A program made the translations under genes and the position numbers. 64,000 bases of DNA from the NCBI GenBank assembly GCA_018292915.2, contig JACVVK020000033.1, forward strand, positions 754,501-818,500, given 5' to 3'. Numbering within the stretch: position 1 is the first letter of the stretch; each line of letters begins with the position of its first letter. Source of the stretch: Batillaria attramentaria (taxonomy: Eukaryota; Mollusca; Gastropoda; Batillariidae). Below the pieces are notes generated by a model. It saw only the letters and a list, made by a program, of their open reading frames with translations, was not told the DNA's origin and made no database searches. Positions 4,166 to 62,932 of the stretch are shown here, piece after piece.

Positions 4166-4929
4166 GGGTGTAGGTATTTCTTTAGGTCTCTCAGTTAATC
4201 ACTGTGTTTATGGCTACGGTTTCCCACCCGCTAACTGCGATTTTTTTTTCCCACGATCAGTTCCGAGTTTGACCAGTCATCACAGAGAATTTTTTTTTGA
4301 GCGTGCTGTTTATTTATTTATTTATTTTTTGTGCACAGTACAGCTGGACACTATTCTAATATTTCTCCTCGACGACTGACATACGACCGACACCCCTTCT
4401 GTAAAAAAAAGCCCTTATGACGTCAATGAACCTAAGGGGCGCCATGTTTTCGTCACGATGATGACTTTGCAGCAATGTTGCAGCCATACTGCTGCCCTGA
4501 GTTAGGTTGTGATAGGTTTTTTTTTTTTTCTTACTGCTGTGATTTCAGATTGCAAAATACATGTGCCAAACAGTTTTGTTGCGTTTTTTGTTTTTGTTTT
4601 TGTAAACACGTTAACGAAACGTGACTGCTATACCAGCCACGATCAGTCACTTTCGTCAGCCCGACATGTTTCGTCTCAGCGTATTTAGCCAGTACATGCA
4701 CGCCCTCGGGCTGAAATACTCGGTTCATTTCGCGCGAGCTGATATCCATCACTGAACTATAGCTATTTATAATACACTGCACGTGTAATGAATTGATTCC
4801 GCCCTGCTTTTTCGTCATCAATGATTGTTACAGCAGTCGGTGCAAGGAATATGCTGATTGTCATTCGTCAGTAGTGGGTGGAGGAAACTGGCATGTCATC
4901 GTGACGTCATTGCGTGGTGTTATTTTGTG

Positions 4930-24784: not shown

Positions 24785-24804
24785 ATGGATGTGTGTTCTG
24801 TTCG
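24785..24804 (+). CDS. EGF-CFC exon 1 (coding part): start codon and signal-peptide n-region
   Basis: ATG at 24785 has A at -3 and G at +4, a strong context. It encodes MDVCSVR (last codon split, phase 2) before the donor CG|GTGAGT. An in-frame upstream ATG at 24761, just after a TGA at 24758-24760, would add eight residues (MKTPATKI) but has T at -3. I chose the downstream ATG for its context. The 5' leader carries at least three short upstream ORFs starting at the ATGs at about 24572, 24617 and 24749. Confidence 0.6.
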
Positions 24805-26667
24805 GTGAGTATCGGTTGTACTGTTCTGCCCCTGTTATGTACAGCAGTGATCTCCCGTGGGAGACTACCTATGGTCAGCGATGTGCGTGTGCTGTGTGTA
24901 ACTTGTATCCGTAGGCGGTTTCACTGACTGAGTTTGGGGGTGGGGGTGTTGGTGAAACAGTGAAGCAACTGTTGAGAGATCAGCAGGAATGTGGTGTGTT
25001 TGATGCAGTCATGCGTTCACTTTGTTTTGGGGGATGAATCCGACCCCAGTTTTTGTTGGACAGACGAGTGACTGAGAGAGTGAGTTTTTCGGGCTTAACT
25101 GTAGCCGCCGCGCAACTGAGCACGACAGACTAATTCGCGGCTAATTGTTGCACAGATGATTGTCAGGCTACTGTAGTTAGGGCAACTGACGAGTTACCTA
25201 GGGGCATACACACCCCGAACTCAAACACCATGACTGAGTGAAAACTAACGAATAAATAAGAGAGAGCGAGAGAGAGGGGGAAAGAAAAACTGAGAAGGAG
25301 TCTGAGAGCGAGTACGTCAGTTCAGTTTAGTCAGTGTTCTAATGCAACAATTGCAGTTTTACTATATAGTGTCAATGCGCCTGTAGGAAATGGTGAAGAT
25401 TCAGCGCCGGCCTGGTGACGATAGAACCCAGGGGCATGCACACCCCGGCCGAGCTGAAATACCTTGACTAATAGAACTTAAATGAATGAGACCGGAGTGG
25501 GGTGGGGGGTGGGAGAAAGACTGAGCAGGAGAGAGAGCAGAGCAGTGGTCAGTTTTTGTGTTATGAGCATAATGTAACAATTAGTTATCGTTCTGTTTGG
25601 AGAAGCGTAGGCTGTCATCATATCATCAGTGCTGGTAGTGAAACTGAACAAAAACTGAGATGAGTCACTATTTTGTGTGACATCAGGATACACCCACACG
25701 ATATGACACAGCGACCGAGTAACACTGAGCAGGAAATAATGTAAACGCACGGCCGCGGGTACAGCTGATTTTCACGGAACACGGAAAGCACTAGAGATAC
25801 AGCTAAACCGGCCTCCGTCCGGCGTAGACTGACGCTGAATTCTTTTCAGTTCAGGTTATAAGTACATTGGTATAACTATTAAAAAGTGAAAGTTGGATGG
25901 TTGCTTGTCTCGGCTAGGTCGAAATTGATGCACTAGGTGACAGCTGAGTGCTGCCAGAACGTGAACGTCAGTGTGAAACTGGGTCTTTGTACGTCTGTAG
26001 CATAAACTGTGACCATATCGATTCGATCTTTTTTTTTAACTGAGTCCGAGCCGCGGCCCGCTCATCCCCTGCTCACTTATACTTGTTAAAAAGAAACAGC
26101 CACTGCACACCAGTGGGATCCACTTCAAGCCACTACTACACAAGGCGTGGGCCTTCTCGCTAGGCGCAAGACTACTGCGGATTGAGTAACTGTGGCTTCT
26201 AATGGTCTGAAATTTCAAGTAAAAATGCGATTTTTGCATGGACTATTAAGAGACATATCATATGAACGTTTCAGATCTAATTTAAAGTGTATCAGTTTTA
26301 TTCACTAGTGAACATGTTTCACGTTAAACTGACGGTGGAAAACACTATACTGTGACCACCACCACGACTGGCTTCGTCTGTAGCATGAAGATCGAATATA
26401 AACAACAGTCGCAGGACTATTATTTTGTTCTTGGGGTAAGCTATAACGTACGACCATAAGCTGAGAAAAAGTGGCCACCACAACAGGTGGCCTGTAAGCG
26501 CTGTTGAACTTCAAGCGATTACACCTTGATAATCCAGCGAACGGAAATAATTATTTGTGCTGGCCCACTTTTCAGTGCCCGCTTTCAGTATGTTAACATA
26601 CCGGTAGTAAATCATTTTCTATTGTCCGTCCGTACCGCACAACTCTTGACTCTGGTCCATCTGTTGG

Positions 26668-26725
<58 letters not shown>

Positions 26726-29700
26726 TCCTCTTCAAAGTCTATCTCAAATTGATTGCCGTGACGTGAAATAGCCAGCTGTCGCCTATAATGAAATGATAGG
26801 TTTAAGAGCTTGAAATGATTGCCGTTCAGTCTCCCAGTGACTGCCTTTTATCTAATAGTAGTTCTAAGTGGTACTGTCGAGATTTTGACTTGTTGAGCCT
26901 CTCAAAAACAACAACAACAAAAAACAACAACAACAACAACGATTTGTCATTGTCTCTATGAGAGCTACCGTTGTTCCGCCTTCTGCTTTCCATCCAGAGT
27001 TGCCTCCTATGTTAGGAGTGGCGTGGTGGCGTAAAACTGAAGTCCACCGCCGGACTCGTTAAATTGTCGCAGGTGTGCGTGTGTGTGTGTGTGTGTGCGT
27101 ATCTGTATTGTCAATGCCGTCAGTGGACTTTCCGGTTTTGTCAGCTTATAAACACTGCAAGCGGTAACGTACAACAACACGCGCCTGGCTTTTATCGGTC
27201 AGCAAGGAGGATTACAGGTACCTGGTTGTTTGAGCTTTAGCGCCCACTGCTTGCTCATCCCACAGCATCAGTCATGTTGGTTCGGTGATGGCTGAAGATT
27301 ATGACGCCACGGTCTGTTGACCCAGCGCCGCTTTCTATATCAAAACGTTACCTTTCGGTAGATTGCAGTCAGCGTGTCACGTGCTTGTTTGGACAATGAA
27401 GATGTTAGATGTTTGTGTTCATGGCGAAAGACGTCGCGATAGAGGCGGGCTACAATTGTTGCTGACATTCAACGAAACTTGTGTCTGTTCAGAGACAATG
27501 AAGCTCCAACCCCTCCCCCCCCCCTACACCTTCCCGTTTAAAAAAAAAAACAAAAAAAAAACCACACCGCCCCTCCCCCCCCCACCCTTCAGCAACATGT
27601 TTACACTACAATCATCTGACGCAGATATTTGAAAAAAAAATCAAGATGAAATGCGTGTATTACCACCCCCCCCCCCAAAAAAAAAAAAAAAAGAAAAAAA
27701 AAGAAAAGAAAAAGAAAACCACAACAAACCACAAAACAAACAAACAAACAAACCCCCCGCCCCCCCCCCCCCCAACAAACAAAAGCAAACAAACATACCC
27801 CAAAAAACCCCAAACAAACAAAAAAAAAAGAGAAAAAACAAAAACAAACAAAACAAACCCCCAACAAACCAGTGAACTTTAAGCAGTTTTTGCATACTAA
27901 TTACTAATGATAATTAATAATAACCATTACTCGTCAGTAGTGCATACTAACTGCTCTTCTTTTCTTGTTGCAGAGGCCTTGTTACATTGGTTGTTCAGCT
28001 TCACTCCATCGTCATCTTTGCCCAAGGTAAGCGTTTCAGGTCTTTGTTGAGAGAGAGAAAGAGAGAGAGAGAGGGATAGAGAGAGAGAGGCGTACTGGTG
28101 AGACATGCCAACTCCTGAACCTTGAACTTCGTTTGTCACACTCCGAGTCCGCAGAACTGATGACCTGAAACGCGCCGTCTGCTTTCGTCCAAATCTCGTA
28201 CACCTTTTCTGTACATCTACACACAAGAGCTTTGCCTTCTGTTCACAACAAAACATCTCCACGCAAGGTTGCCAGCCGGTGGCTCTAACAGATTTGTTTC
28301 TGGCCCGGCCAAGACCGATAATGCCAGGCTAATTCCTGTAATTGCCTGCCCTTGGGCTCCCTTGCGCTTCAGCTTTGAAAACCGAGAACAGTCGTCAGTT
28401 GTGTTTCACAGGTCTGAGTCGATAAAGCGGGGACAAAAAAAACAAACAAACAAAAGAAACAAACAAACAAAAAAAAAAAAAAAAAAACACACCAAAAAAA
28501 CAAAAACAAACCGAGTTAACGCGCAGTATGCAAGGTGAAAGGAAATAGCGATGTGGTGGTAATGACCACGTCACGATGTGAACTGAGTGTCTGTGCCTAG
28601 TTTTCATACAGTTAGTTATGTTTTGAAAGAAAAAAAATGAAATCAGGGAAGAAACTGACGTGATGACTTGATATAGTTTCCGTATTGCTTACTGATGGGA
28701 ATTATTGATGCGCGGCGTTTCTTACTGTTATTGATATGCCCTTGTCACCCCCTCCCCCTAATGACAGGTACTGCAAATTATACAAATGACTTTATTCCCT
28801 TCGTCAAACTAAGAAACGCGAAACGTGACAGTGTATTTGGGGCTTACGGGCGAAACGTACTGAAACCGGTTTCGGAAGACGGAAATACAAACATCTGAAA
28901 GCTACCGACAAGAAGATCTGTACAGAGTCTACAGCCATTGTTGTCGTCAGTCTTTTCTTGGGATCGCACTCTTGGGTGCGGGGGTGGGAAGAAGAACAAT
29001 GTACCCTAACACCGTAACAGAAGCCCAGGAGCGAAGACGTCAATGACACGTTCGTTAAAAGGTGCAGAAGTTCTAACCCCAGTGAATCAGATCAGCGACT
29101 GCCCAGGGCGGGACCGAGCCACCTGGGATGACCACAGCAACAGTGGCCGCCTACCCTCCGGCGGCTCCGGTCAGCTCTTCTTGGACTTACCGAGCTCTAA
29201 GACACTTGGCGTCAGCTTTTGAAGTTAGTCTCGGACACAGGCGCTTTACCAAGTGGTCATTAGATGGCCAAGAGGCCGTGTCCAGGATCTTGTTGAGAGT
29301 GATTACTGAAGTCATTTGAGCCCCTCAAGTTTAGGTCAGAGACCACCTGGGACATTCCGGCTACTACTGTCTATGTACATAGATTTCCGGCGGCAGTCAG
29401 TTTTAGTTTCGACCTTCCGGACAATGCAACGCGTTGAAAGCGTGCATAAGTGGTGATTACTTTTCCGCTGTCCTGTTGTGACTGTGCTTCAGTGACAACT
29501 TGGCAAAACGACAGTTTCTTTGTTTTTTTTTTTTTTTTTCCCCAGTAGGATTTATTTCGCTGCTGTCAATCACTCTGTATACTCTGGTTCCCTTTGTTTA
29601 ATGGAAGTCGGGTGACCCAACTCTGAGCTCAAGCCGGTTCGGACGATCTCGTGTTCGGATCCTAACAAGGTGAACAATTTATGAGGGCTGTTTTTCTTTC

Positions 29701-30309
29701 TCTCCATCATCGAAATCATCCTCCCGATGCTCACGACTGATGCTCCGGCCCCATCCATCCCATTAAAAAAAAAAAAAAAAAGGGGGAAAAAAAAAAAAAC
29801 AAGAAAAGGAAAGCCTTAACACTGTCCCATCCCTTTGTTTAAAGTGTCCGCCAAAGATCGCGGTTCGGCCATCATATGAAAACCTGAACCGTTCGGTGCA
29901 GCTTTTGTGAACCAGGTGAACCTAAACTCGGCGTCCGTCCTTGAAGCAGACGCGGGAAAGCAGGTGCTAACCCCCCCCCCCCCCTCCCCCCACTCCAACC
30001 CCCCTCCTGTGCAGACAGTTGTTTCGATAAGAAATCAGGGGCTACTTTCTAGAGAACGCACATCATATCCTACATCGTCTCCGGCTACAGTGTAGCCAGC
30101 ACCCCGCTGGCGACCCTGATGGTCTTCAGATTTCAGTGTCGATCAGTTTAGTAAAGACCTTAGACTTCGGCCGTTGGTTTTAACTGCAGCCTTCATTTCA
30201 GTTCCCCCGTGGTGTTATCCTTACATTTCGACTGACGACTGATAATGTAGTTTTCACTTTGTTTCCAGTATACTGAATGAAGTGTACGGAGCCCCTCCTC
30301 CCCTCCCCT

Positions 30310-30402
<93 letters not shown>

Positions 30403-33400
30403 TTCCACCCCGTCTTTCAAACTGACGCAAAGCGAGAGATGCCTAGAGGGGGAGGTGTACTATACGGCGAAATTGAACCTGATTAAAAAACAAATGTATC
30501 CAACGTTATCATAGTTTTGACATGAGGGGATTAGGACCTGCCAACACCTGTCACCGATAAAAACAAAAATGATTTTTCCATTTTTTCTCTGATACGTTAC
30601 AACGCCCGCTTTTTTTAGTGTGAGATCTATGTCACCTCCGTGCATAGCTGCTTGTCCGGCGTCTGCTCTCTCTCTCAAACTCTCTCGTGAAAACCTGTAC
30701 ATACAAGAAAACCTTTCAAATGCCCACCTAGATAACGTGACCGAAAGAGCGGAGTCCGTGCCCAACTGCTTCGCGGAATCGCGGCCTTTCAAACGGAGCT
30801 AACAGTTTATCTGCCGAACCATCTCCGCAACTTATTAGCGCCCAGCTTCACTTTAACAGCCAGGGCGACCTGCCAGAGGCGCAAATGGCCGCTTTAAGCG
30901 ACCACCTGCCGGGAGCGACCGCTAGGGTTCGCCCTTCGCTCACCTGGGCCGCGAGGTGGGTCGCAGTGTCAAGTTGGGGGAAAGCTTCACTAGAACGGAT
31001 ACCTAGAGTGTACAGAGCTGCGAGGTTTAGAGAAGACGCCAAGCCGGACTGACGCGGTGGCGTATGTATGGTCATTCATTGTGCACGGTTAGTGTACAGC
31101 ACCGTAATCTGCTTGCGAGCACGGGTTTCGCCGAGAGCCGGTGTGGAAATACAGGAACACGGTCCCCGCATACAGAGAATGAATCGGAGTGAGAGTGCTA
31201 GCTTAACACTGTGATGTTCCGTTGTATGCTCAGTTTGGGTTGCTGTGTCGGTTTCGGACTCTTTATTGTCGAATTTGTCAGTCTTTCAAAACTTTTACCG
31301 TTGAAATTTAAAGAGTTTTGTCATCATCATCATCTATCTGTCTGTCTGTCTGTCTCTGAGCCGGGGTGGCCGAATGGTAGAGCGTTGGACCTCTAATGCT
31401 CGGGCCCTGAGTTCCGAGTTCGTATCCCGACTAGGACGCTCAAATAATATTTGCGCTGGCTTTTTCGTCGTTGCCCCGTCCGTTTGATATCACCCGTATG
31501 TGGTGGAAAAGGACGTTAAACCCCGAAACATCCACCCACCCTGTCTGTCTATCTGTCTCGCTCCTTTCTCGGTCGCGTTTAGGTGTCACACTGACTTGAC
31601 AGCTTCTCAGTCCTGTTCTCGACAACTTGTCGCCAGGTGATGACAATCAGATTCGTCAGATAGCTATTGACATTCAGTGTACCAGACCGCCCAAATTACG
31701 AGGTTTTTTCGGTCATTGAAATCATTATGTAAAAATGTTACGTGTATGGCATTCATTTTGAGGCGGGAGGGGAGAAGGCCGGGTGATAGTTGGACTCAGC
31801 TATTGTCTGCAGCGCGAAAAGTTGCCTTGCCATCTCACTCGTGCAGGACGTCCCCCAAAACAAACAAACAAACAAACAAACACACACAACCCAACACAAC
31901 AAACACAACCCAACACAACCCAACACCCAACACCAACACCCACACCACAGCCAAAAGAAAATCCTACAAAACCCCGAACAAAACAACAAAACAAAACCAA
32001 CCCACAAAAAACACAAAACCAAACAACCCAAACAAACGAACAAACAACAGCAAAACCAACGAAACCCCCCCCCCCCCCCCAAAAAAAAAAAAAAAAGGTT
32101 TTGCACGCCTACCAGCAGTAAAATGCACTCCCAGCCAAATAAATCCGTTTGCCACGGGCACTGCCCAGGGACGCCGTCCCCACGCCTGTGGATAGAACCC
32201 TGTCACACTTTTTCCCCTTGCCACTCCAGCCAGTCGACGCTGACCGCGCTCTGCGGTGTATTGTCCAGCGCCGGACCGGCAGCGCAGTCGGCCCAGTGCA
32301 CGCTGGGAACGTGTGAACAGAAAATCCACTTGGCGAGCATGCGAGCTCGCTGCACAGAGGCACTCAGCGTGTGCAAAGGTCTGTTCAGTCTCCCCGCTGT
32401 TCCATCCTTGCACGAAATACTATTGCAATTTTCGTGCGTGGTTCGGTTTTAACTACCGCTGGTCAAAGTCACTGACGGACCCCCGGACTTCAGTTCGCAG
32501 CTAGTGCAGAAACAACTTTACTTTTCACCGCCCAGTCCCGTGGAACATGAATCATGCAGTTTAGTGACGCGCGAACGCTGATTTAAAGACTTGTCCGTCC
32601 TCGAGCGGATTATATGGCACTGCGCCCTCAGCCAATAATGCCATTTTCATGCCCGCTCCACCTCTTTTATCTCCTCGCCAGAAGAGCTCTTATCTGGTCA
32701 GCCAGCTGTCCGCGGTCATCTCGCTCCGATGGTCAGTCTCAGTGCGGAGTTGTGAGCCGTGGTGTGTGCGGTACATAGCGAGAGGAGAGAGGGCCATTTA
32801 AGTTTTAGTTTTATAATTTTTTTTTAATCAGCGTGGATGATCGAACCTTAAAAAAAAAAGCCGCCATGCCAGGGCCCGAGTGAACCAACCCAGCATTTGA
32901 ACAGCCTCACAGACGACACTTGGACGACCTTTTCTTGTAGCTATGCTTCTTCACAAGTTTCGACGGCGGTTGCTCCCAGTTAAAGCCGTTATCTTAAAAC
33001 ATGAGCACATTCACGTCCTTAGATGGCAGTAACGTATTAGTACAAGTCGGTTTCTGGTTGGTAAACGCCGGCGCCTTTCAATCGTTCTAACCAACAACTG
33101 AAAATTCAAAACGTTTTTGTTTCCGGTGCTATGACGTTTAGAATTTGAAGAGGAAAAAACAAACAACAACAACAACAACAACAACTAAACACGCGGTGCT
33201 GTGGGGTGGGAACCCACTGGTTGACGGTGCAGTGATTTGGAGCGGCAAACGGTAGCACCTGGATAAACAAACGCCCGTCCAGTTTTGTTTCACCCCCGTG
33301 AGATTACCGAGAGACTGTGTGGAGCTTTCGTCAGCGTAAAGATACCGGCTTGAACTGAACTGGTCTGATCTGATCGAAGTTCAGACGGAGTGTTCTGTTC

Positions 33401-43852: not shown

Positions 43853-43934
<82 letters not shown>

Positions 43935-43959
43935 CACACGTCCACAAGTACCCCCGCCC

Positions 43960-44019
<60 letters not shown>

Positions 44020-45396: not shown

Positions 45397-45449
<53 letters not shown>

Positions 45450-45485
45450 GTAAAGAAACAGGCTGAAGTGCCTACACATAACGCA

Positions 45486-45520
<35 letters not shown>

Positions 45521-48500
45521 TGCGCATTGTCTAGGCACTTTACCCAGTTTCTTGAATTGGCTCAAAGCGCCGCGAACTTAACCCATCACGCACGCTCACG
45601 TGAATCACACGCATTCTCTCACATACTGGACATGACCATGATAATCACGTGGTGCGAAGAGTCAGTTCGGCTCGGAATCTCCACTTGCATACATTTATAT
45701 TCAAATTTAGTGGGCTGAAGATTTCCAAAAGTAGAAGGGGGAGGAAGCCGGAGTACCCGGAGAGAACCGCCGACGATCGGCCAATATGAACGGTGCCACG
45801 TACGAGAAGGAAAAATTCTTTGCCCCCGAGTGAGACTCGAACCTGTCGTCTGGCATTGGTGGCGAAGTCTTAACCACTAGACCACTAAAGTTACAAATAA
45901 CTCTTCACCGTACTGTTGCTAGTTTTTTCTCTCTTGTCAGACTGAGGGTGGGTGAGCGGGTGGGTGTTTGAGAGTTTAACGTCCTTTTCCACCACTTATG
46001 GGTGATGTCAAAGACTGGGCAACGAGAAAAAGGCCAACACATATACTCGGCCCCAGCTCAGGACCCGAGCATTGAAAGTCCAACGCTGTACCATTCGGCT
46101 ATCCCAGCTCCCCTTGTCAGACTGACGTAAATGGTTTTCGCATAGAACGGCTGATCGGTGCTAAAGAAGACAAAACAGACAAATCTAGTCGTTAAGAGGG
46201 TTCTAGTTCATTTGGCGCTTGCCGGGCCGGAACAGCGCCTGTACCCAGTCCTCTCCATTAAAATGCAGTTTTCTTTAAAAAGAGAAACAAACATCCCAAA
46301 ATACGTTTAAAAAAAAATGCAAGGCATAAGTTGAGTTAAAACATCATCAGTGATGAAAAAGCGCAGGTTTGGGCATATTTTCAGGAATTGGTCCACAGCA
46401 GTTATCAATCAGATTATGCTGACATGCTGGTTTTCTTATTTGCCCAGCAAAGGGCAGTGAGCCAAAACTTGAGGATTTTGTTGAGTTGCTAAGTGGTTTT
46501 CACGATTTCTGCTGAGCGGCTTTCGTGCTGCGGCGTTCGACCTTTTTGTTATCGGTAAGCATAATTATGTATGTACTTAGATCTAATAGCTAAACTTGTT
46601 TGTGATTTACATTAAAAAAATCTTTACGCTGATACAATATTGCTGAGGTGTTTGCCACGATGGATAGCAAACTTGAGATTTTGAAGATTTAAAATTCACG
46701 CACATATTTCACTCTGTGCACTTCAGCGTGTGCAGGTGGTAGTCGGTTGGTGTTTGGCTTGGCTTTTACTGATACAGATATTGTGTGAGAGCAGCCCCAC
46801 TCTGCTTTGGTTACTTGCTTTGTTCAGTGAATGGGCATCGTATCTGATCAGTCTGTTTTTATGTAGTACTTCCACTCTGCTTTGGTTACTTGTTTTGTTC
46901 GGTGAATGGGCATCGTATCTGATCAGTCTGTTTTTATGTAGTACTTCCACTCTGCTTTGGTTACTTGTTTTGTTCAGTGAATGGGCATCGTATCTGATCA
47001 GTCTGTTTTTATGTAGTACTTCCACTCTGCTTTGGTTACTTGCTTTGTTCAGTGAATGGGCATCGTATCTGATCAGTCTGTTTTTATGTAGTACTTCCAC
47101 TCTGCTTTGGTTACTTGCTTTGTTCAGTGAATGGGCATCGTATCTGATCAGTCTGTTTTTATGTAGTACTTCCACTCTGCTTTGGTTACTTGTTTTGTTC
47201 GGTGAATGGGCATCGTATCTGATCAGTCTGTTTTTATGTAGTACTTCCACTCTGCTTTGGTTACTTGTTTTGTTCAGTGAATGGGCATCGTATCTGATCA
47301 GTCTGTTTTTATGTAGTACTTCCACTCTGCTTTGGTTACTTGTTTTGTTCAGTGAATGGGCATCGTATCTGATCAGTCTGTTTTTATGTAGTACTTCCAC
47401 TCTGCTTTGGTTACTTGTTTTGTTCAGTGAATGGGCATCGTATCTGATCAGTCTGTTTTTATGTAGTACTTCCACTCTGCTTTGGTTACTTGTTTTGTTC
47501 AGTGAATGGGCATCGTATCTGATCAGTCTGTTTTTATGTAGTACTTCCACTCTGCTTTGGTTACTTGTTTTGTTCGGTGAATGGGCATCGTATCTGATCA
47601 GTCTGTTTTTATGTAGTACTTCCACTCTGCTTTGGTTACTTGTTTTGTTCGGTGAATGGGCATCGTATCTGATCAGTCTGTTTTTATGTAGTACTTCCAC
47701 TCTGCTTTGGTTACTTGTTTTGTTCGGTGAATGGGCATCGTATCTGATCAGTCTGTTTTTATGTAGTACTTCCACTCTGCTTTGGTTACTTGTTTTGTTC
47801 GGTGAATGGGCATCGTATCTGATCAGTCTGTTTTTATGTAGTACTTCCAAACTCCCTTGAGCATATGCTGCGAACTGGTTTATTGCGCCTAGGAGATGAT
47901 AAGTTGCAATATTTGCTGTATATGCGCTTAGTATTTATCTTTGTTTTACCTAGTTGTAATTGTCATTTGTTTTCTACGCTTTTTTTGTAACCGGGAGTTC
48001 GAGAAATTAGCATGAAGGTGCAGCGTCTCCTGCATGTCCTAGGTTTATATTGCCCCGTAGACCAGTTTGCATCCTTTGTCCACCGTTACATTTTTGTTTT
48101 TTTGATGTAGTGCAGGCACACTCAGCCGCGAATTAGTCTTTGTGGCTTGCGCGGCTTTAAGCACTAAAAACTCACTCACTCCAAACTCCCTTGAAAAGCC
48201 GCCGAGTGCAAAGCAACGCACCGTACCCGAAGGGTTGCTCAATTCTCCGTCATGCTTGTCATCAACTCGCTGGACGCTTTCTACCTCCCTTTGCGGAGAG
48301 GCGATAAAGGGCAGATAATGAGCATCTCGAGGTCCCGTAACTGAACAGCCCTTTGGGTGACGAGGAGGCCGTGTTACGTCATGAGGGGTTTATCGGACCC
48401 CAAACACAGCGCTTGCATGGAGGCTCATGTTTGACGACTTTCACCGTTGCCCGGCACGAGGTTTCGGCACTGAAAAGGACAATAGCGGCCTTTCTGTTCT

Positions 48501-49623
48501 TTTGCTAACTGGTTCGTGTAGACAGATACTGCCCTGGCCCTCTAAACCAATTGGGTTATATCAGGCGACGGAACTTGTCGGAGGTACTGAGGTGGTTATC
48601 ACCACTGTGCGCTTGCCAGGCATGTGAAAAGTGACCGCAGATGAGTTGCCACACAAGCTGTAAAGGACCTCCGGATCTGGTATTGTTAGAGGACAACTTT
48701 AGTGTTGGAACAGTTTGGCTTGGCAGTGTACCTGAACGCCGCTAAACAGTCTTGTTGGTATAGCTCTAAATGCAATAAAATGGTGTTTGCTGGCCGTGCG
48801 AACGAGAAGTAAAACGACCCGGTGCTGTCCTAGCCTGCAGTGAGAGTTATTTGTGGCTTTACGCCGCGCAAGCAACAAAGACTATTTCGCGTCTAAGCGA
48901 AACAACTAAACCGGAAGCGGAGCGCTACGTCAACAATTGATCACATCCGCAAAGTAGTTCCTTAGTTTGATTATCGTCGGTTTAGTTGTACTTCTTTAGC
49001 GTGTTCCCATAGCCGCTTAGACATCTATATAGCGAAATGGAAAAGGACACCGGTGTATGCTGTCACAGTATTCGTCGTACTACAACTGTACCTTGTGTAT
49101 GGTTCACAGGCGGAGGCAAAATTATAGGCATCTGGTCTTTTGCCACCGCCTGAATACTTCGGTTTTGTGTAAATTGGCGAGCGGGATAAAACCATGTTTA
49201 AATCAAGGACACCGGGAGATAAAGGATGCTTTTTCGTCTACTGATTTTCTGAACTGTGAGACTAAAAATTTAATGGTGGTGACGGCGTCACAGTCGAAGC
49301 GAGCAGTGTGCCGGCAGCCGACAGCTACACCTTCGTCAGTTGTCTGTGATGAGCTTTTGTACTTCGCCCCGACACACAAGCATTCCGCCACGTAGGTTAC
49401 AGGTTCATGAGAATGAAGTCATTTTATGGTTGCAGGCCCGCTCCAGGTTCTGCGTAGGCAATTAAACTGCAGCTGTAAATCAAGCCGTTAATTGTGGAGA
49501 ACTGGCGACATCCCGTGGCCGGAATGGTTGTCGTTTATATCAGTCGCGAATTAACCCGCCCGGGATGATGTGAGCGGGGTGTACTGATCGCAGTATCATA
49601 ATCACAAGAGTTCATTGACACTT

Positions 49624-49687
<64 letters not shown>

Positions 49688-55600: not shown

Positions 55601-58600
55601 GCAATCGGCCCCTATTAATTGTTGTAACCGACAACTGAAAATCAAAACATGGGCGTTTTTGCCGGTGCTATGGCGTTTTGATTTTGGAAAAACGCGGTGT
55701 TGTGGCGTGGGAACCCGCTGATTGGCGGTACAATGATTTGGAACCTTATAGCACAGGAAAAACGCCCGCCCATTTTGTTTCTTCTACTTCTAGTCACCCC
55801 GGCATGCGCGTCAGTGAATCTAGCTCCCCCCCCCCCCCAACACCTCTCCGGGAAACAGAGTACTAAGCCAGATGTACTCCCCGGCTCGTCAGTTTGACTC
55901 CGGGGCACTTCTAGCCTCAAGCTGCTCAGACTCGGGGGACCTATCTGCGTAGACCCGGGGCACTTCAAGCCTCAAGCTGGTCAGACCCGGGGCACTTCGC
56001 TCTGGGATTTACATCCCGAGTGTTACACCGGGATAACCAAGGCCGGACAGTAGAGCGTTGGATTTACAAAGCTCCGGTCGCGAATTCCAATTCCGGTTGG
56101 GAACCAGAAGTTTGTACTGTGCTGGCCTTTTCCCCGTTGCCCCGTGTTTGCTATCACGCGGCAGTAGTGGTGGAAAAGGACGTTTTAAACACGCAAACAG
56201 CAAACCCAGCACCTACCCCCTCCCCCATCCCATCCCTATTTCCCCCACCCCCGCTCCTGTCCCGCACTCATCCTAGTTTCCCCTCCAGCAATGCGAAGAA
56301 ACCCGACTCCCAAAGGTACTTTATCCTGACGCATTATTTCGCCAAATCACGACAGAAGCCCGCACGATCACGGACCGTCATCCTGTTGATTGAGACTGAT
56401 GTTGATATGGAGTGACTGGCCGTTGTCGTCTGTCGCTTTGCTGCTATTTATAGAACAATGGACAGGGGATGCGTTTTGCTGAAGACAAGACAGATCGTTC
56501 ATGTAATCAAAGCATTTCTTCTGCGGTGCGGATCACCCATACGTGGTGGAAAAGGACGTTAAACTCTTAAACACCCACCCTCTTTGGTGCGAACTAGCAT
56601 ATCCTTTAGACGCGGGTGTTTTTTCAGTTATAGTGTACATGCCAGCCGCATGCTATTTGTAGATTGGAAAAACAAAACCAGACTAATTTTTTTCAAGTGG
56701 GTTCAGGGGGTGTCAAAATTTACAAGCAACCAACCAACCAAAAGCAAGTGTCCATTAACAACAACAACAACAACAACATCGTCAACAACACGTTTCAGAT
56801 TTTCATGCAATATCTACGTGGTCATTTACCTCGATGTTAGTCAATATTTTTTTTTTATAACAAATTCACGAGTCGACAAACAAAACCAAATACCTTCTAT
56901 CCACCTTTTTTTTAAAAAATGGGTTCAGTCAGTTTCAAAGCAACCAACTAACCAAAAGCAAGTTTCCATTAACAACAACAACAACAACAACAACGCGATT
57001 CATATTTTCATGCAAAACCTACGGAGTCGGTTACTTCGGTGTTAGTCATTGTAACAAATTCACGAGTCGGCATAAACATTGATGGCCCCTTCCTTTGTCC
57101 AACCCTATCACTATTTCTGACTGATGGATGGGCTCCGCGTTATTCGAGCAGCGTTCCTATCAGACCTGTGTCATCCTCAGTCCCTGTGTCGGCGGCACTC
57201 CCTCCCCCTTGGCAACCGACCGTGTTTCACCTGTGGAATTCGTTATGTAGATCATGTTCCTCTAGCGAAAATGGACATAGGGGTAAGCAAGGGGGAAAGC
57301 CGGGCATGTTTATTGCCGGAGACCAACAAGGATCTCCAAACTGAAAGGCCTCACCTTTCGAGTCCCACACCACCACCCGCCCGCTTCTGCTTCAAGGCCC
57401 AGGTGCGCTGTCTGGGTTGGAGATTACGACCCGGGCTGCCAGTCGGAGACAGGGGGGTTAATTGCAATTAGCGCCCCTCGGTGTCGCCAGCTTTTCCTGC
57501 GTCGGCTCGCCCTTACCTGGGCTTGGTCGCGGAGACACCGGCGCTGTTCTGTCGTGTGTACCTACCGCGCCGCTATAGCTGTCCACTAACCACTGTCCCC
57601 CTGCCGTCTCGTGTGTGCGAGTTCAGAGGAGGGTCGACTAGGACCTGCAGGGGGTGAGGCTGAGTTCAGGTAGATCCTCCGGTTGTGGCACGCGACGAGG
57701 ATTAGGGGGGCACCGTGATACTAATCCTGTTTGATCTCAAACTCTTGGTGTTCATCGACTCCGCGCGGGATGATAACGGGACAAATTACTCCTAATAGGG
57801 GGCACAGAGCTTGAGGGGAAAAGACCTAGCCAACCATGTTAAGACGTGGAAATGTGCACAGGTATCACTCTGTTTACCCTAAGAACTGTTACCCAAAGCG
57901 GACAATGGAGCAAAAAGACAACAACAGGGAAACATTTGAGATATGGGGTGAAGCGCGTATGGGTTTTCCCAGGCGCAGAGGAGACATTTTGCTAAATGGA
58001 ACTGAACCGTTACTCATCGCGCTGCCCCGTTAAGCCGGATGCATCAGTGTGCTATTAAAAAAAAACATCAACAAAAAACAAACAAACAAAACAAAACAAA
58101 ACCAAAAAACCCAACAACAACCAAAAACCCAACAACAACCAAAAACAAAAAATCCAACTTTATAAAACAGCTAAACCAGCCAACCATGTTATGAGCTTTA
58201 GAACAGGCGCTATACCGTTTCGCGGCCCTCAAACTGTGTAACTGACGTCATTCACATTCCATAACCGATCCTTAAGTTGTTTCACGAGCACTACAGGGTG
58301 TTGGCGTGTGTCACGTGACAATACAGCTCGAGCGTTTGACTGTTCGTTTGGTGGTTGTGGGTTCGGTCCCATGCCCGCAGGGTCAATGTTTGCCAGTACA
58401 GACCTTTTCCAGTATCATTACTGTAAACCTTAAAACATCACGCTTAAAAAAAAATGTTGCCAAATGTTTAGAAACGTGCCCATATTTCTGTCCCCTGTTT
58501 TATCTTGCCACATTTCCCCGCCGAAAAGAAATGTGGGCATATTTCTGAAAAAAAAAAACAAAAAAACATACAGTAAAACACGAAAATATGCTCACTTTTC

Positions 58601-59912
58601 TTCTGTTTTATCGTGCCACATTTCAAGTCCCCGCCGAAAAGAATTGTGTGCATATTTGTGAAAAAAAACCAACCAAAACACACTAACAATAAAACACGGA
58701 AATATGCTCACATTTGTTCTGTTTTATCTTGCCACATTTACCCGCCGAAAAGAAATGTGTGCATATTTCTGAAAAAACACACTAACAATAAAACACGAAA
58801 ATATGCTCACTTTTCTTTTTGGCCACATTACCCTCCGAACATCAGAAAGTGTGCCCAAAAAGAACTATGAGCATATTTTTAGAAATGTGGGCACATTTTC
58901 CAGAAAGGTGGGCAATTTTCCAGAAATGTGGGCACATTTTCCAGAAATGTGGGCACATTTTCCAGAAATGTGGGCACATTTTTGTAAATTTGGCCACATG
59001 TTTAGTAAGAGACCCTCCCTCCTTTGTTTTGGCCAAATCTTTTGGGATAACGAATGTTTCCGCCATTCATACTTCGTCCCATTATTCGTACCGAACTCTA
59101 TGGCGTGAACAGTACCGCGCGCATCATATTTCCTCACGCCGCTGCCACACGCGTTCTGCCCAAGTCCTTTGAAGAGACTGAAATGCCAATGGTTCTGTAA
59201 TACCTTCACGTTTACCTCGCTCTTTAATCCCAAAACGAGTTGACACTGCGGCCAGTCCGGCATTGTAAACGGCCCCGCTGAAAGTGGCCGAAGCTTTGTA
59301 TTTTTCCGCTCGCTTTCCCGGGCCCGCACGTCGTGGTTTGCAAACTATCGCCATTGCCCAGAACCACTCGAAACACCTTGGAGCAAAGCAGCCAGATTAC
59401 CTCACTATTGCCGTAAGTCGATAACGAGTCAGCCCATTACACGCCTGACGTTTTTGCAACAATGAACGCATTGCCGGAAAGGGATTTTAAAGGCTAGAAG
59501 CACGAGAAGGTGCAAGTTCGTTTGTGACTGACGCTGAGAAAGTAAATGCTGAGTGTATTAATTTTGTCTGATTATTAGTAAATGAAGTTTTAAATAAAAG
59601 CAGGTGCGTTGAAGTTTAGTTCTCGTCTTGCCTCCGTCATTACCCAGAGCCTTCTTGCCCAGTTTCAGCGTTCCGCACATCACTGTGAACAATATCATCA
59701 GAAATAAGTTCAGACTGAAAATCAGGTGTAAAATCATCTTTTCTATTTCACCCGATGCGATGTGCACAAAAGTATTACTTGAGAATACTCGAAGCTGATA
59801 GTGTAGGCCGCTGCAACTTTCGCCGAAAGAGATGACACCGTGTAGCACTTGGTCAGCAGGCGGACTGGCATGAATCCAAAATTCCATCTGGTAATCAGTG
59901 GGTCGGTTTCTA

Positions 59913-59944
<32 letters not shown>

Positions 59945-62932
59945 CCAAACCAAAACAACAAACCAAACCAAACCAAACCAAAACAAAACACCAAAACTAA
60001 ACAAAACAAAACAAAACAAAACCGTCAAAACAAAACACCCTAGAGAGCGAACCAAAGAGTTTACTCACTGAGCGCACGTCAAGTGCTACTTTTTGTGAGC
60101 ATGTAAGAAACGCCTTGCTGTTATTACCCGTTAACTCTTTCGCATCCCGCGGCAAGCAGAGCACATAAACGAGTTTCAGCGAGGCGGTTTCCGATAACGG
60201 TCCGCGATAAGTCAGTTAACCATACTCCATTAACTGGCCATTACCGTACGCACACGCCCAGCGATCTCAACGGAAACCAACTTTGATTTGGAACAGTTTC
60301 GCTTGTGGGTGCGCCTGAAAGAGCCTATCTTAATGATTAGTAGAGCTCTGGATGCGAGACAGTGCAGCCGTGTACAGTCTCGGTTAACCGGCTAAAATCC
60401 AATGTCTTCTACTCAGCGGTTGACCGTGCCGCAAGCCTGACTCCCTCAGTCCTTGACTGATATTCGCGTCGCCGTGTGAGGCCTTCACTGAGTTAACTCC
60501 GTGCCAGCCCTCAAGATGCAATCATTATGCAGTTGTTTAGATGCTTACGCTACCATATTTTATGCTCACAGATCGTTCTGATCTGTTTTCGTGGTATCTA
60601 TCATCATCATCACACCACTTAAGACACCTGAACAGTGACAGCGTCTGTAATGCTGACACGTAGCCAACGGAAGCGTACTCGCTCTCAGTGATGCGGCGAC
60701 CACAATGAGCGCCCCAATAGTGCCTGTAACAACAGTCGCAGAAGTTGAATGTTCGACCGCTCGTGCCAAATGTAAACAACACTGTATCGCATTAAGAGCT
60801 GTACTAAACATCAAGATAAGAGTATTTCCAGGCGTACAGACACACTTACGAGCGAAAATGTTTCAAAACATAAGCTGGAATAGCAAAGATGGAGTTATCC
60901 CTTTTATAGTGTAGACGGACGGCATTCCCGCGTACACAGTGATTGTAGAAGGGAGATGAACAGGCTGGCAACAGTGTCTGTGTGTACTGTACCTAACACG
61001 GGGGAACATCAAAGACGTCTTAGCTGCAGGGAATGCCTGCATCGGCCTCAGTAATTTTAAGCAGGTGGTCTCTTGTACAGAAGGGGGTCGATTGATTATT
61101 AAAAAGAAAGAAGCAGCAGAAGAAAAAAAAAACAGGGCAGATGTGTTTCCTGCAGGATGTACTGGCTTTTGGGCCTCGGTTTCATACATAGCCGTTGTTG
61201 TATGGACTCCAAAATGGAGTCCAAGGCGGGTATGGTGAATACATAAAAAGTATAAATAAAAGTGAAATAATCACACGCACGCACGCACACGCACGCACGC
61301 ACGCACGCACGCACGCTCACACGCTCACATGCTCACATTCAAGATTACACGTGTTGGTCTTTGCATACGAATTGTCTTGGCGTTTGCTTATTGATGGCAC
61401 TTGAAATCAGTGTTCGTATCACTCAGAAATGCTTGTAGTTGAAAGCATTTTATCTTGAAATCTAGAAGTGATCAGTATGTATATATGTAACTATGTTTTG
61501 TCCTTGTAAAAGTTTGCGCGAGTATAGCCTCAAGGCAACGTTCATTGAACCAACAACTATTTTTTTTTTTGTTGGTGTCAGTGAAACGCCTCAGTGTCAC
61601 TTAACTTTTATTCACCTAAAAATTATCACACTTCACATCTGTTTATGTTCTGTTTGCAGCACTGTCCACCAAAGGGGACGGGGCGGTCAGACCCAGCAAG
61701 AAATCTAGACAGGGGGACTCCAAACCCTGCTGCTATAACGGCGGATTGTGTGTGTTGGGCAGCTTTTGCCACTGTCCAGAGTAAGTAGGGGTCACCCCAG
61801 TCTTCCTGCTTTCAGCAGTTGATCTTATTATCCTTAGTGTGAAGAGTGATTCAAGCTTTTTGTCCTGGAAATACACGGTGGGAAACTTGTCAAAAATATG
61901 AGAGTAGAATGTTGGAGAGAAAGGTGGTTGGTGGTGGTGGTGGTGGTGGTGGTGGTGGGGTGTGTGTGTGTGTGTGTGTGTGTGTGTCTCAGTGAGAGAG
62001 AGAGATTTCTGAAATGATAACAACGGCACTAACACGTTGCATGTATGTATATAATGCTGAAAACATCGTGAAATATTATTCAGAAGCTTGTCATCTAATA
62101 AATTTCTGCGAGTCCGACCGAATACACATTCTATACATTGCCCTAAAATTTCCGTCTGTGTGTGTTTCAGAAACTTTTACGGACGCCACTGTGAATTTGA
62201 GCTGAAGCGGAAGACATGTGGTCACGTGCCACACGGAAGCTGGGTGAAGGCAGGCTGCAACCTTTGTCAGTGTAATGACGGTCACATGGCTTGTCTACCA
62301 CGTGCATTTGAGGGTTGTGGTAAGTCCCTTTATACAAATAAATAAATAAATAAATAAATAAACTAATTCCCAAAATAGAACTGTTGCTATGCAGTATATG
62401 TCTATCTTCAAAATAGAGGCCAGAAATTGTTGTGTCCAAATATAGTATTGCTTCATTAGCAAACAGTGCTAGTCATCCAACAAACCAGCCGTCTAGTTCA
62501 TTTAAAATATATTAAAAATACCAACCAACCAAAACACAAAACGAAAACAGAAATGAATAAAAATTCCACATTGGGATGATAACTGTTGGCGTAGTAAGTA
62601 GACTGAGTAATGCCCAACTCCTTTACTGAGTGTCCTGCAGCAAGTTTTGCATCCAGATTCTTAAAAAAAAAAAGAAGAAGTCATTACATGTTTCTTCCAT
62701 CATCTGTGTAGATGATTTACCACTGAAAGAGGAGATTGACCCTTGGGACTACAAAGACGAGATGGTGGTCTTTGCCGCAGACGACTCGAGCAAGAGTGAT
62801 TATACATCAGACGGCGCTGACTACTATGACTATTACGAGCTGGAAAACAGCAAAAAGGCAGCAGCAGGAAGGACTTCACAAAATGCCGTCTGCTTGTTGC
62901 TAACACTGCTGGTGTGGTGGCTAGCTTCTTAA
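24785..62932 (+). CDS. EGF-CFC family protein (Cripto/Cryptic-like Nodal co-receptor), five-exon gene model
   Basis: Coding exons: 24785-24804, 27974-28026, 61660-61780, 62171-62319, 62712-62932; 564 nt, 187 residues plus stop. Every junction is GT-AG and phases match (2, 1, 2, 1). Seen in order: signal peptide 1-25 ending in AQA; short basic linker 26-47 with KKSR; compact EGF module C48-C72 starting CCYNGG and containing GSFCHCP and FYGRHCE; CFC module C81-C114 with VPHGSW; acidic tyrosine-rich stem 115-160; hydrophobic tail 173-187 typical of a GPI-attachment signal. Family knowledge: EGF-CFC proteins are cell-surface co-receptors that bind Nodal/GDF through EGF and the type I receptor ALK4 through CFC. 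H86 and W89 match the His/Trp pair needed for ALK4 binding. Total length is close to that of mammalian Cripto. Odd: the EGF O-fucose threonine is leucine, and there is no N-glycosylation sequon. Exons 3-5 are near certain; exons 1-2 rest on phase, splice sites and signal-peptide logic. An extra phase-1 exon in intron 2 cannot be excluded. Confidence 0.85.
26036..26245 (+). repeat. REP-3 copy (intron 1)
   Basis: CTTGTTAAAAAGAAACAGCC, ATCCACTTCAAGCCACTACT and ATTTCAAGTAAAAATGCG align with 42845-43088 in the same order. Confidence 0.7.
26671..26723. repeat. CA microsatellite (intron 1)
   Basis: Uninterrupted CA run. Confidence 0.95.
27660..27870. repeat. A/C-only low-complexity block
   Basis: Runs of C, A, AAAC and CAAA with almost no T or G on the plus strand. 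Similar blocks lie at 16870-16975, 28436-28510, 31857-32096, 58050-58160 and 59919-60030. Long frames through them are composition artefacts. Confidence 0.9.
27974..28026 (+). CDS. EGF-CFC exon 2: hydrophobic core of the signal peptide
   Basis: A 53-nt exon between the acceptor TTCTTGTTGCAG and the donor CAAG|GTAAGC. Read in the phase left by exon 1 it gives [17 protein letters not shown], a typical signal-peptide hydrophobic core; the other two frames are not hydrophobic. It leaves one base (phase 1), which with CA from exon 3 makes alanine and completes the AQA signal-peptidase site. A GA microsatellite begins about 20 bp after the donor. The exon is small and was found by reasoning, not by homology. 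Confidence 0.65.
30312..30400. repeat. CA microsatellite (intron 2)
   Basis: Uninterrupted CA run of about 44 units, one of the longest in the window. Confidence 0.95.
31357..31540 (+). mobile_element. SINE-1 full-length copy in a CTGT microsatellite
   Basis: Head GCCGGGGTGGCCGAATGG, tail GGAAAAGGACGTTAAACCCC. CTGTCTGTCT lies on both sides as target duplication. Box B region carries a small duplication (GAGTTCCGAGTTCG). Confidence 0.88.
31857..32096. repeat. A/C-rich low-complexity block before REP-2
   Basis: AAACAAAC, CCCAACACAA and poly-C/poly-A runs joined directly to the REP-2 copy at 32097. It gives spurious frames on both strands. Confidence 0.9.
32097..32410 (+). repeat. REP-2 copy
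   Basis: TTTTGCACGCCTACCAGCAG start, GGACGCCGTCCCCACGCCTG, GTGTGAACAGAAAATCCACT and GCGTGTGCAAAGGTC near the end. Abuts a long A/C-rich low-complexity block. Confidence 0.75.
32935..33295 (+). repeat. REP-4 copy
   Basis: ACAAGTCGGTTTCTGGTTGG, CCGGTGCTATGACGTTT, GGGAACCCACTGGTTGACGG and AAACGCCCGTCCAGTTTTGT match 55505-55790. This copy has an extra CAA run at 33160-33186. Confidence 0.7.
33441..33600 (-). mobile_element. SINE-1 copy beside a REP-2 fragment
   Basis: Complete head with box B motif, and a short deletion in the tail (the CCACCAC segment is missing after CGTCCTTTT). No clean target duplication was seen. Directly followed by REP-2 sequence. Confidence 0.85.
33601..33690 (-). repeat. 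REP-2 terminal fragment
   Basis: Reverse of the REP-2 start (TTTTACCGCTGGTAGG, GTGCAAAATCGCCACGTG). It adjoins a SINE-1, which may have split a longer copy. Confidence 0.65.
34154..34567 (+). mobile_element. SINE-1 interrupted by another SINE-1, with a duplicated tail
   Basis: The outer copy has an 11-bp duplication CATAAACATAA at 34143-34153 and 34568-34578. It is split at 34298-34489 by the inner copy. Its last ~38 bp (TTGCGTAGTGGAAAAGGACG onward) occur twice in tandem. Confidence 0.85.
34298..34489 (-). mobile_element. SINE-1 nested in SINE-1
   Basis: Full-length minus-strand copy with a 10-bp duplication GCGTAGTGGA at 34288-34297 and 34490-34499, inserted into the tail of the outer SINE. 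Confidence 0.88.
35547..35709 (-). mobile_element. SINE-1 copy
   Basis: Head and body are recognisable (GGGATTCGAACTCACGATCC, GGCCAGCACAAATATCTGG, TTTAACGTCCTTTTCC). Part of the anticodon-arm region is deleted. No clear duplication. Confidence 0.82.
36227..36370 (+). mobile_element. RTE-like LINE 3'-end insertion
   Basis: A 144-bp insert flanked by a perfect 14-bp duplication, TATAATCTTACCAT, at 36213-36226 and 36371-36384. In one frame it reads [21 protein letters not shown] then CSPGNKED and stop, homologous to the last residues of the reverse transcriptase at 2926-4134 (GVARLAQNRVRWRRVVDGLC) but clearly a different subfamily. The tail is short ACTAA repeats. Confidence 0.85.
37323..37487. 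repeat. Inverted-repeat element with ~75-bp arms
   Basis: ACAGGGCCGAGGATGAGGGG at the left and CCCCTCATCCTCGGCCTTGT at the right are inverted. Arms are roughly 85% alike by eye and separated by TAGTTTTTCACA. No target duplication seen. Looks like a small MITE. Confidence 0.7.
38619..38796 (-). mobile_element. SINE-1, full-length
   Basis: Perfect 13-bp duplication TGGGAAATGCCAG at 38606-38618 and 38797-38809. Full tRNA-like head, body and GGACGTTAAA tail. Confidence 0.92.
40473..40575 (+). mobile_element. tRNA-like SINE head, SINE-D-like
   Basis: GGGGAGTCGG start, AAAGAGCGTCGGACTCGAGA and box B GAGTTCGAATCCCG. It resembles the head of the SINE at 22096-22470. The 3' part is missing or unrecognised. 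Confidence 0.55.
40589..40780 (+). mobile_element. SINE-1 copy
   Basis: Diverged head (GATAGCCAAATGGTAGAATG, GAGTTCGAATCCCGG) and a tail with GGAAAATGACGTTAAACTCC. Immediately preceded by another tRNA-like head at 40473-40560. Confidence 0.8.
41782..42054 (+). mobile_element. ACTC-tailed retroposon, copy 1
   Basis: 273 bp flanked by a perfect 14-bp duplication TTGAGGGTTGATAC at 41768-41781 and 42055-42068. Ends CTAAAAACTCACTTACTCC. Almost identical to 47909-48180. No tRNA head; probably a LINE 3' UTR. Confidence 0.88.
42845..43088 (+). repeat. REP-3 copy with internal inverted repeat
   Basis: AGGAGCCACTTCAAGCCAC at 42936-42954 is inverted at 43020-43038. The 26-kb copy has kept the left arm and part of the right. 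Confidence 0.72.
43092..43225 (+). mobile_element. tRNA-like SINE, unassigned family
   Basis: GATGGCGGGGTAACTGAGG, then GAGTTCAAATCCTGTCTTGG (box B-like) and a body with TTCGGGCTTTTCCCCTTGCC. The tail is lost in an A-rich run. Confidence 0.5.
43856..44014. repeat. Two CA microsatellite blocks
   Basis: 43856-43938 and 43969-44014, separated by a short C-rich spacer and followed by a poly-A tract at 44052-44073. Confidence 0.95.
45400..45515. repeat. CTA and ATT trinucleotide microsatellites
   Basis: CTA run 45400-45450, then ATT run 45488-45515. The latter is the 3' tail of the SINE-B copy. Confidence 0.93.
45488..45888 (-). mobile_element. SINE-B, second copy
   Basis: Same architecture as 6403-6794, roughly 85% alike by eye, with a longer TTA/ATT microsatellite at its 3' end (45488-45515). 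The head retains CTAGTGGTTAAGACTT and GGTTCGAGTCTC. Confidence 0.83.
45946..46112 (-). mobile_element. SINE-1 copy
   Basis: 13-bp duplication CTTGTCAGACTGA at 45933-45945 and 46113-46125. The head lost part of box B. Confidence 0.9.
46798..47848. repeat. 75-bp minisatellite, 14 copies
   Basis: Near-perfect 75-bp units starting CACTCTGCTTTGGTTACTTG and ending GTAGTACTTC; variants are mainly C/T in TTG(C/T)TTTG and A/G in TTC(A/G)GTG. As 75 is a multiple of three and a unit has no stop in one frame of each strand, long frames are open on both strands (about 46730-47860 plus and 46723-47850 minus). The plus-strand reading is a repeated hydrophobic segment ([20 protein letters not shown]); the minus reading is polar with [17 protein letters not shown]. 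No codon-type substitution bias or recognised domain supports a gene. Confidence 0.93.
47861..48180 (+). mobile_element. ACTC-tailed retroposon, copy 2 (longer)
   Basis: 320 bp flanked by a perfect 14-bp duplication CCAAACTCCCTTGA at 47847-47860 and 48181-48194. It carries about 48 bp more at its 5' end than copy 1, so the copies are 5'-truncated at different points, as expected for target-primed reverse transcription. It abuts the 75-bp minisatellite. Confidence 0.88.
49625..49685. repeat. CA microsatellite
   Basis: Uninterrupted CA run. Confidence 0.95.
50512..50699 (+). mobile_element. SINE-1, full-length
   Basis: 14-bp duplication TCACCTGAAGTGAG at 50498-50511 and 50700-50713. Small insertions in the head around box B (GCCGGGGTCGTGACTGAGTT). 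Confidence 0.92.
52374..52582. repeat. Two-unit tandem repeat (~106 bp)
   Basis: GGACAGCTACCCTTACAGAA starts each unit (about 52374 and 52478). The units are nearly identical. The motif GCTACCCT..CAGAACA...CAGC recalls the middle of SINE-D, so this may be a duplicated SINE-D piece. Confidence 0.7.
53420..53480 (-). mobile_element. SINE-1 tail-only insertion
   Basis: 61 bp of SINE-1 tail (GTGGGTGTTTGGGAGTTTGT, TTTCCACCACGTATC), flanked by GGGTTGCAGGT at 53409-53419 and 53481-53491 (11 bp). Confidence 0.8.
54100..54282 (+). mobile_element. SINE-1 with a poly-G expansion at its 5' end
   Basis: 11-bp duplication TTTTCTGCCGG at 54089-54099 and 54283-54293. The 5' GGAG of the head is replaced by a run of more than 20 G. 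Box A and box B are intact. Confidence 0.88.
55505..55790 (+). repeat. REP-4 copy
   Basis: GCAAGTCGGTTTCTGGGTGG, CCGGTGCTATGGCGTTT, GGGAACCCGCTGATTGGCGG and AAACGCCCGCCCATTTTGTT match the copy at 32935-33295. Also partly self-inverted (GCGTTTTGATTTTGG against the AAATCAAAACAT segment). Confidence 0.7.
56028..56205 (+). mobile_element. Diverged SINE-1 copy
   Basis: Head GGATAACCAAGGCCGGACAG with CGAATTCCAATTCCGG in place of box B, tail GGTGGAAAAGGACGTTTTAA. The box B damage suggests an old copy. Confidence 0.75.
56531..56580 (+). mobile_element. SINE-1 tail-only fragment
   Basis: ATCACCCATACGTGGTGGAA to ACACCCACCC. Flanked by imperfectly matching TTCTGCGGTGCG and TCTTTGGTGCG, probably a decayed duplication. 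Confidence 0.65.
56668..57071. repeat. Direct duplication of ~200 bp
   Basis: Unit 1 56668-56876 and unit 2 56877-57071 share, in order, TGGGTTCAG, CAACCAACCAAAAGCAAG, an AAC run, ATTTTCATGCAA, GATGTTAGTCA-like and AACAAATTCACGAGTCG. Substantial divergence between the units indicates an old duplication. Confidence 0.75.
58297..58425 (+). mobile_element. tRNA-like SINE remnant
   Basis: GACAATACAGCTCGAGCG ... GTGGGTTCGGTCCCATGC looks like a decayed tRNA-derived head, followed by CAGTACAGACCTTTTCCAGT. Family unknown. Confidence 0.4.
58440..58995. repeat. Compound tandem array (~115-bp units, then 21-bp units)
   Basis: Units containing CCGCCGAAAAGAAATGTGGG and AAACACGAAAATATGCTCAC recur at about 58490, 58610, 58730 and 58800. 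A 21-bp unit (CAGAAATGTGGGCACATTTT plus C) is then repeated about four times at 58900-58985. The short unit reuses a motif of the long one. Confidence 0.8.
60270..60905. repeat. Two REP-1 pieces in opposite orientation
   Basis: 60270-60380 is REP-1 reverse (TTTGGAACAGTTTCGCTTGT, GATTAGTAGAGCTCTGGATG). 60540-60905 is REP-1 forward (TTTTCGTGGTATCTATCATC, CACTGTATCGCATTAAGAGC). They are separated by about 160 bp without recognised content. Confidence 0.65.
61274..61318. repeat. CGCA microsatellite
   Basis: ACGC/GCAC tetranucleotide run about 340 bp before exon 3. Confidence 0.93.
61660..61780 (+). CDS. EGF-CFC exon 3: linker and first five EGF cysteines
   Basis: The acceptor follows a pyrimidine-rich tract (TTCTGTTTGCAG) and the donor is CCAGA|GTAAGT. 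The exon encodes the end of the signal peptide, a linker with basic KKSR, and the EGF start [17 protein letters not shown], which is diagnostic of the EGF-CFC family: two adjacent cysteines, no spacer loop, and GSFC-x-CP. The intron splits the EGF module before its FYGR segment. Only this reading phase gives the EGF pattern. Confidence 0.93.
61781..62170 (+). other. Intron 3 of the EGF-CFC gene
   Basis: 390 bp, GT-AG. It contains a GGT trinucleotide run (61926-61957) followed by a GT run (61960-61988) and a short GA run. Confidence 0.9.
62171..62319 (+). CDS. EGF-CFC exon 4: end of EGF module and whole CFC module
   Basis: Acceptor GTGTGTTTCAG, donor TGTG|GTAAGT. Encodes ENFYGRHCE, closing the EGF fold, then a CFC module whose six cysteines (C81, C94, C97, C99, C106, C114) have the family spacing CGxVPHxxW...CxLCxC...C...GC. 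His86 and Trp89 occupy the family's receptor-contact positions. An AAAT-type microsatellite (62336-62361) begins 16 bp after the donor. Confidence 0.94.
62320..62711 (+). other. Intron 4 of the EGF-CFC gene
   Basis: 392 bp, GT-AG. It contains an AAAT-type microsatellite (62336-62361) and an A-rich tract near 62660. No coding signal of its own. Confidence 0.9.
62712..62932 (+). CDS. EGF-CFC exon 5: acidic/tyrosine-rich stem and GPI-type tail, stop codon
   Basis: Acceptor CATCTGTGTAG. The exon completes the last CFC segment (GCDD) and encodes an Asp/Glu/Tyr-rich stretch including [11 protein letters not shown], a Lys/Ala spacer ([11 protein letters not shown]) and the hydrophobic tail [15 protein letters not shown] before TAA at 62930-62932. 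This layout, small residues then a short hydrophobic end with no cytoplasmic tail, is that of a GPI-anchoring signal; the likely omega site lies among the AAAG residues 164-167. The stem is poorly conserved in this family, so the assignment rests on phase continuity and the tail. Confidence 0.9.

Follow-up and report, generated by a model that had tools for sequence, protein, structure and literature searches.

Nodal signalling in vertebrates depends on EGF-CFC proteins, and where that dependence originated is an evolutionary question. The egf-cfc gene is reportedly present in non-deuterostomes as well; in gastropods it is said to be dispensable for left-right asymmetry, and chordates are said to have gained a single residue. 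EGF-CFC has been placed in a bilaterian-specific orthogroup, revising the view that it was confined to deuterostomes, and arthropods and nematodes yielded none of the five factors of the Nodal pathway, according to Heger et al. 2020 (PMC7535936), whose section 12 makes no mention of molluscs in connection with EGF-CFC. In the Cripto of human and mouse, Thr88 carries an O-linked fucose, replacement of Thr88 by Ala abolishes the facilitation of Nodal, and in mammals it is the Thr itself that is needed, not the fucose (Schiffer 2001 and Shi 2007, as cited in PMC11964751). The citing paper also proposes that Pofut1 does matter for some Nodal ligands in Xenopus.

In this study, we describe a five-exon EGF-CFC gene encoding 187 residues on the forward strand, at 24785-62932 of a 64,000-nt stretch of DNA (the window, C33:754501-818500 of the assembly). 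The original prediction had assigned the DNA to an apparently molluscan genome and, indeed, the protein encoded by exons 3-5 is 100% identical to BaRGS_00007659 (P0001) of Batillaria attramentaria, deposited as a hypothetical protein. We propose that the gene is an EGF-CFC orthologue whose product would modulate signalling receptors at the cell surface, an explanation to which, taken as a whole, we assign a probability of roughly 0.65.

The splice model that we rebuilt is equal to the predicted one in start, end and length. Its spliced coding sequence comprises 564 nt, corresponding to 187 codons and a stop, and is translated without an internal stop; GT/AG is present at every junction, and the phases are 2, 1, 2, 1 and 0. 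Exon 1 (coding part, 24785..24804, + strand) encodes MDVCSV and two bases of the R codon, and ends at the donor GTGAGT. By score, the seven residues MDVCSVR (15.0 bits, tblastn) are no better than chance when taken alone, and the exon was accepted because it matches MDVSSVR, present in both P0005 (Crepidula) and P0003 (Babylonia), and has a donor of the right phase. Exon 2 (27974..28026, +), placed by tblastn, encodes the hydrophobic core of a putative signal peptide and has a polypyrimidine acceptor and the donor GTAAGC. It scores 33.1 bits against each of the Crepidula and Babylonia N-termini (76% identity over 21 residues for Babylonia). When the stretch from exon 1 to exon 3 was resampled 100 times under a first-order Markov model, the two N-terminal queries reached no more than 24.3 and 24.6 bits. 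Together, exons 1 and 2 match the Crepidula N-terminus MDVSSVRGLITLVIQLHTIAVFSQA and that of Babylonia. The hydrophobic N-terminus of the model is, by sequence comparison of exon 2, homologous to these two, and the gene likely encodes a signal peptide.

Exon 3 (61660..61780, +) encodes a linker and the first part of the EGF module, as in P0001, and exon 4 (62171..62319, +), assigned from PF09443 and 2j5h, the rest of the EGF module and the CFC module (NFYGRHCE...CGHVPHGSW...CNLCQC). Exon 5 (62712..62932, +) adds the WDYKDEMV segment, the tyrosine cluster ADYYDYYE, a putative hydrophobic GPI-type tail and the stop. The motifs from which the gene was originally recognized lie where they had been placed, in frame on the + strand and spanning 61728-62273, with CCYNGG starting at 61728, GSFCHCP at 61758, FYGRHCE at 62175, VPHGSW at 62226 and CxLCxC at 62256; the patterns that we searched were slightly looser, and that for CxLCxC also matched six other places in the window.

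The deposited protein P0001 has the same sequence from exon 3 to the stop and differs at its start, where exons 1 and 2 are absent and a first exon encoding MDSKMESKA, which we located at 61202..61229 (+), takes their place. This exon is probably a mis-annotation in which the signal peptide was lost and, because it encodes no signal peptide, the five-exon model looks preferable to BaRGS_00007659. That the deposited model has a different first exon could also be taken as a sign of a decayed or mis-assembled gene, in which intron 2, at 33.6 kb, links unrelated pieces. We regard this as very improbable, given that the frames are open throughout, that phases and splice sites fit, and that the N-terminus matches those of Crepidula and Babylonia. 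Intron 2 also contains a satellite-like array (46797-47849), open on both strands, in which a 75-bp unit is repeated in tandem (14 copies, 99% matches). Elsewhere in the window, a 422-aa open frame at 2926-4194 (-) contains a reverse transcriptase domain (PF00078, 1.3e-26) and DUF6451, and is presumably a non-LTR retrotransposon.

When the protein of exons 3-5 was compared with Pfam, the CFC model (PF09443) reached 37.4 bits (E 2.2e-9), well over its cut-off of 23.2 bits, which upholds the EGF-CFC identity proposed from the motifs. A search with CFC and EGF domain models had been suggested as the check on that identity; the CFC model passes its cut-off and the generic EGF models score under their own, while Pacifastin_I gave a weak match to the CFC stretch, also under cut-off. 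Among solved chains, the CFC module matched 2j5h, a Cripto CFC structure named 'teratocarcinoma-derived growth factor' (31.0 bits, E 1.9e-6). The protein has a single variant EGF module immediately upstream of the CFC, with cysteines that align with those of vertebrate and spiralian members. Across 22 aligned proteins, ten cysteines of the EGF and CFC modules do not vary, and at least 90% of the proteins retain C106, C114, H86 and W89.

Some results could be read as pointing to a member of a different EGF family (WIF/Shifted or Notch-like) that carries a CFC-like stretch by chance. For the EGF part, repeats of WIF1 were the top solved-structure match, at 31.7 bits slightly above the Cripto CFC; a structure search, in which no match reached E<=0.001, returned for the most part EGF domains, from Notch, Del-1 and clotting factors; and one profile search included, at its lower end, an arthropod 'Protein shifted' (E 3.6e-3). 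Such a reading is scarcely credible, since the CFC exceeds its Pfam cut-off where the EGF models fall short, no WIF domain was found at E<=1 in the protein encoded by exons 3-5, and profile searching returns EGF-CFC proteins from outside the profile with E values from 2.4e-44. A single-sequence search recovered 8 proteins from 23 candidates. With a profile built from the window protein plus six relatives from caenogastropods, 164 proteins were recovered from 4133 candidates at a threshold of E<=0.01. The matches listed (120 of the 164) comprise the profile's own members and P0001, other gastropods, of which Lymnaea is the best match outside the membership, bivalves, Lingula and two annelids; vertebrate Cripto and Cryptic were reached at about 1e-22. 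A third profile search (20 of 1797 candidates) added ten proteins, namely five from bivalves, three without a name, one sawfish cryptic-like protein and the 'Protein shifted' just mentioned. Source names among the matches include 'EGF-CFC [Crepidula fornicata]', 'Teratocarcinoma-derived growth factor' and 'cryptic protein-like'. Judged from these comparisons, the snail protein is almost certainly the EGF-CFC (Cripto/Cryptic/Oep) orthologue of Batillaria attramentaria.

Whether the family had already been reported in molluscs was a question that the original prediction left to others, and the Crepidula database name answers it: EGF-CFC is on record in this and other gastropods and in bivalves, as also in Lingula and annelids. 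The gain from the present locus is therefore one of detail and not of discovery. In the Batillaria assembly (715,342,989 bases in 863 contigs) the CFC model found one place at E<=0.001, with 94 of 94 candidates scored, and the gene is apparently single-copy. A tree built on 32 chosen rows unites Batillaria with Pomacea (97/95) and places Crepidula together with one Nucella protein and one Babylonia protein (98/95); the latter two snails each have a second protein, to which the tree gives no firm place. The four vertebrate rows lie on one side of a branch (96/88), and the deep spiralian order is without resolution. The Batillaria model, with its likely signal peptide, adds a cerithioid snail from outside the two-copy lineage.

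The hydrophobic C-terminus that had been predicted is present in exon 5; read from the sequence, it is of a putative GPI type, and in a structure model of P0001 it forms a helix at residues 155-171 (pLDDT block means of 95 and 89 over residues 161-172). Between the CFC and this tail, the caenogastropod proteins have in common a W-[DE]-Y-x-D-x-M-V segment. A tyrosine cluster, defined as a 12-residue stretch with at least three Tyr and at least three Asp or Glu, a threshold set after the alignment had been viewed, follows the CFC in 18 of the 24 named spiralian proteins among the matches listed (18 of 21 molluscan, 0 of 3 others), those without it being from Lottia, Bulinus, Patella, Lingula, Ridgeia and Capitella. 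By the same criterion, it occurs in 0 of 96 other, Thr-bearing proteins. The tyrosines of ADYYDYYE are possibly sulphated.

At the position of human Thr88, the Batillaria protein does not have Thr, but Leu (Leu54 of the 187-residue model). Among 130 gathered proteins, the variable residue X of the motif C-x-N-G-G-X-C is T in 98, L in 12, I in 8, R in 4 and V in 4, and the remaining 4 are without the motif. With proteins assigned by name from the search tables, and with counts that cover the matches listed and not the other 44 profile matches, the position is occupied by L, I, R or V, and never by T or S, in 24/24 named spiralian proteins that have the motif; a twenty-fifth, P0126 of Magallana gigas, is without it. 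Named vertebrate proteins among the matches listed have T in 94 of 95 cases, the exception being Pristis P0128, with I. The arthropod 'Protein shifted' (P0130), which is not an EGF-CFC protein, has V. Of the proteins without a name, four have T (P0011, P0024, P0028 and P0039), one has V (P0125) and one has I (P0127); the motif is absent from P0008, P0022 and P0129. P0011 groups with Lymnaea in the tree, and therefore Thr may recur in snails. Given the Thr of P0011 and P0024 and the Ile of Pristis P0128, the residue is not a clean marker, and since invertebrate deuterostomes do not occur among the named matches listed, the change at the Thr position may have run in either direction. Of the 24 named spiralian proteins among the matches listed, 22 retain the HxxW of the CFC; the two that do not are from scallops. 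Batillaria has the His and Trp for the type I receptor as H86 and W89, which we take to correspond to human H120 and W123.

Our model predicts that the snail protein is secreted and GPI-anchored at the cell surface, that the His/Trp face of its CFC would bind an Activin-type (ALK4-like) type I receptor, and that it would modulate Activin/Nodal-class signalling there. It is probably not an obligate Nodal co-receptor in the manner of vertebrate Cripto, because the required Thr is replaced by Leu; at the level of the residue, we predict that Leu in this position should block vertebrate-type Nodal signalling. As for the mechanism, we put the chances about even that the protein is a GPI-anchored modulator of Activin/Nodal-class receptors that does not work in the vertebrate way, and modulation of these receptors at the cell surface is the likeliest function.

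A ligand for the Nodal pathway is probably present in the Batillaria genome, where the TGF-beta model found 15 places. At one of these (L003, G000:C1:2610459-2610761 +) lies a Nodal-like mature TGF-beta domain; among solved chains it is closest to a Nodal/BMP2 chimera (120.9 bits vs 101.0 for the next), the name Nodal resting on this chain and on hallmarks of the sequence and not on a tree. Two other TGF-beta exons, L005 and L006, on contigs C399 and C631, have equal scores and domains that look identical when translated, and may represent a recent duplicate or an uncollapsed haplotype.

It is conceivable that the protein is a full Nodal co-receptor that helps to set snail chirality, the Leu being tolerated through a co-evolved snail Nodal. 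We consider this unlikely, as the Thr required in mammals is missing from every one of the 24 named spiralian proteins with the motif among the matches listed, and gastropod egf-cfc is, as mentioned above, reportedly not needed for left-right asymmetry. In its favour are the Nodal-like ligand encoded in the same genome, the conserved CFC His/Trp, and the part that Nodal signalling plays in the asymmetry of snails (Grande and Patel 2009, cited in PMC11067212). The co-receptor function first proposed for this gene survives in part: the ligand and the retained His/Trp agree with it, whereas the word 'obligate' does not stand with Leu at the Thr88 position. Beyond the modulator function that we favour for Batillaria, we suggest, somewhat tentatively, that molluscan EGF-CFC proteins could form a functionally distinct branch, without the Thr, mostly with an apparently mollusc-specific acidic tyrosine cluster, acting as Nodal-independent regulators at the cell surface, and with copies that may have diverged after a duplication in the neogastropod lineage.

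Altogether, the Batillaria protein shares with vertebrate Cripto, Cryptic and Oep one EGF module, one CFC module, a hydrophobic tail and the CFC His and Trp, and differs from them in the Leu at the position of human Thr88 and in its additional acidic tyrosine cluster. The EGF-CFC of Crepidula fornicata (P0005), 63% identical over 76% of the query, is closer: it has the N-terminus MDVSSVR, the EGF, the CFC, the WDYxDEMV segment, the DYYDYY cluster and the NGGLC in common with the Batillaria protein. It differs in its grouping with one of the two copies of each of Nucella and Babylonia, whereas Batillaria groups with Pomacea and has one CFC place in its genome.
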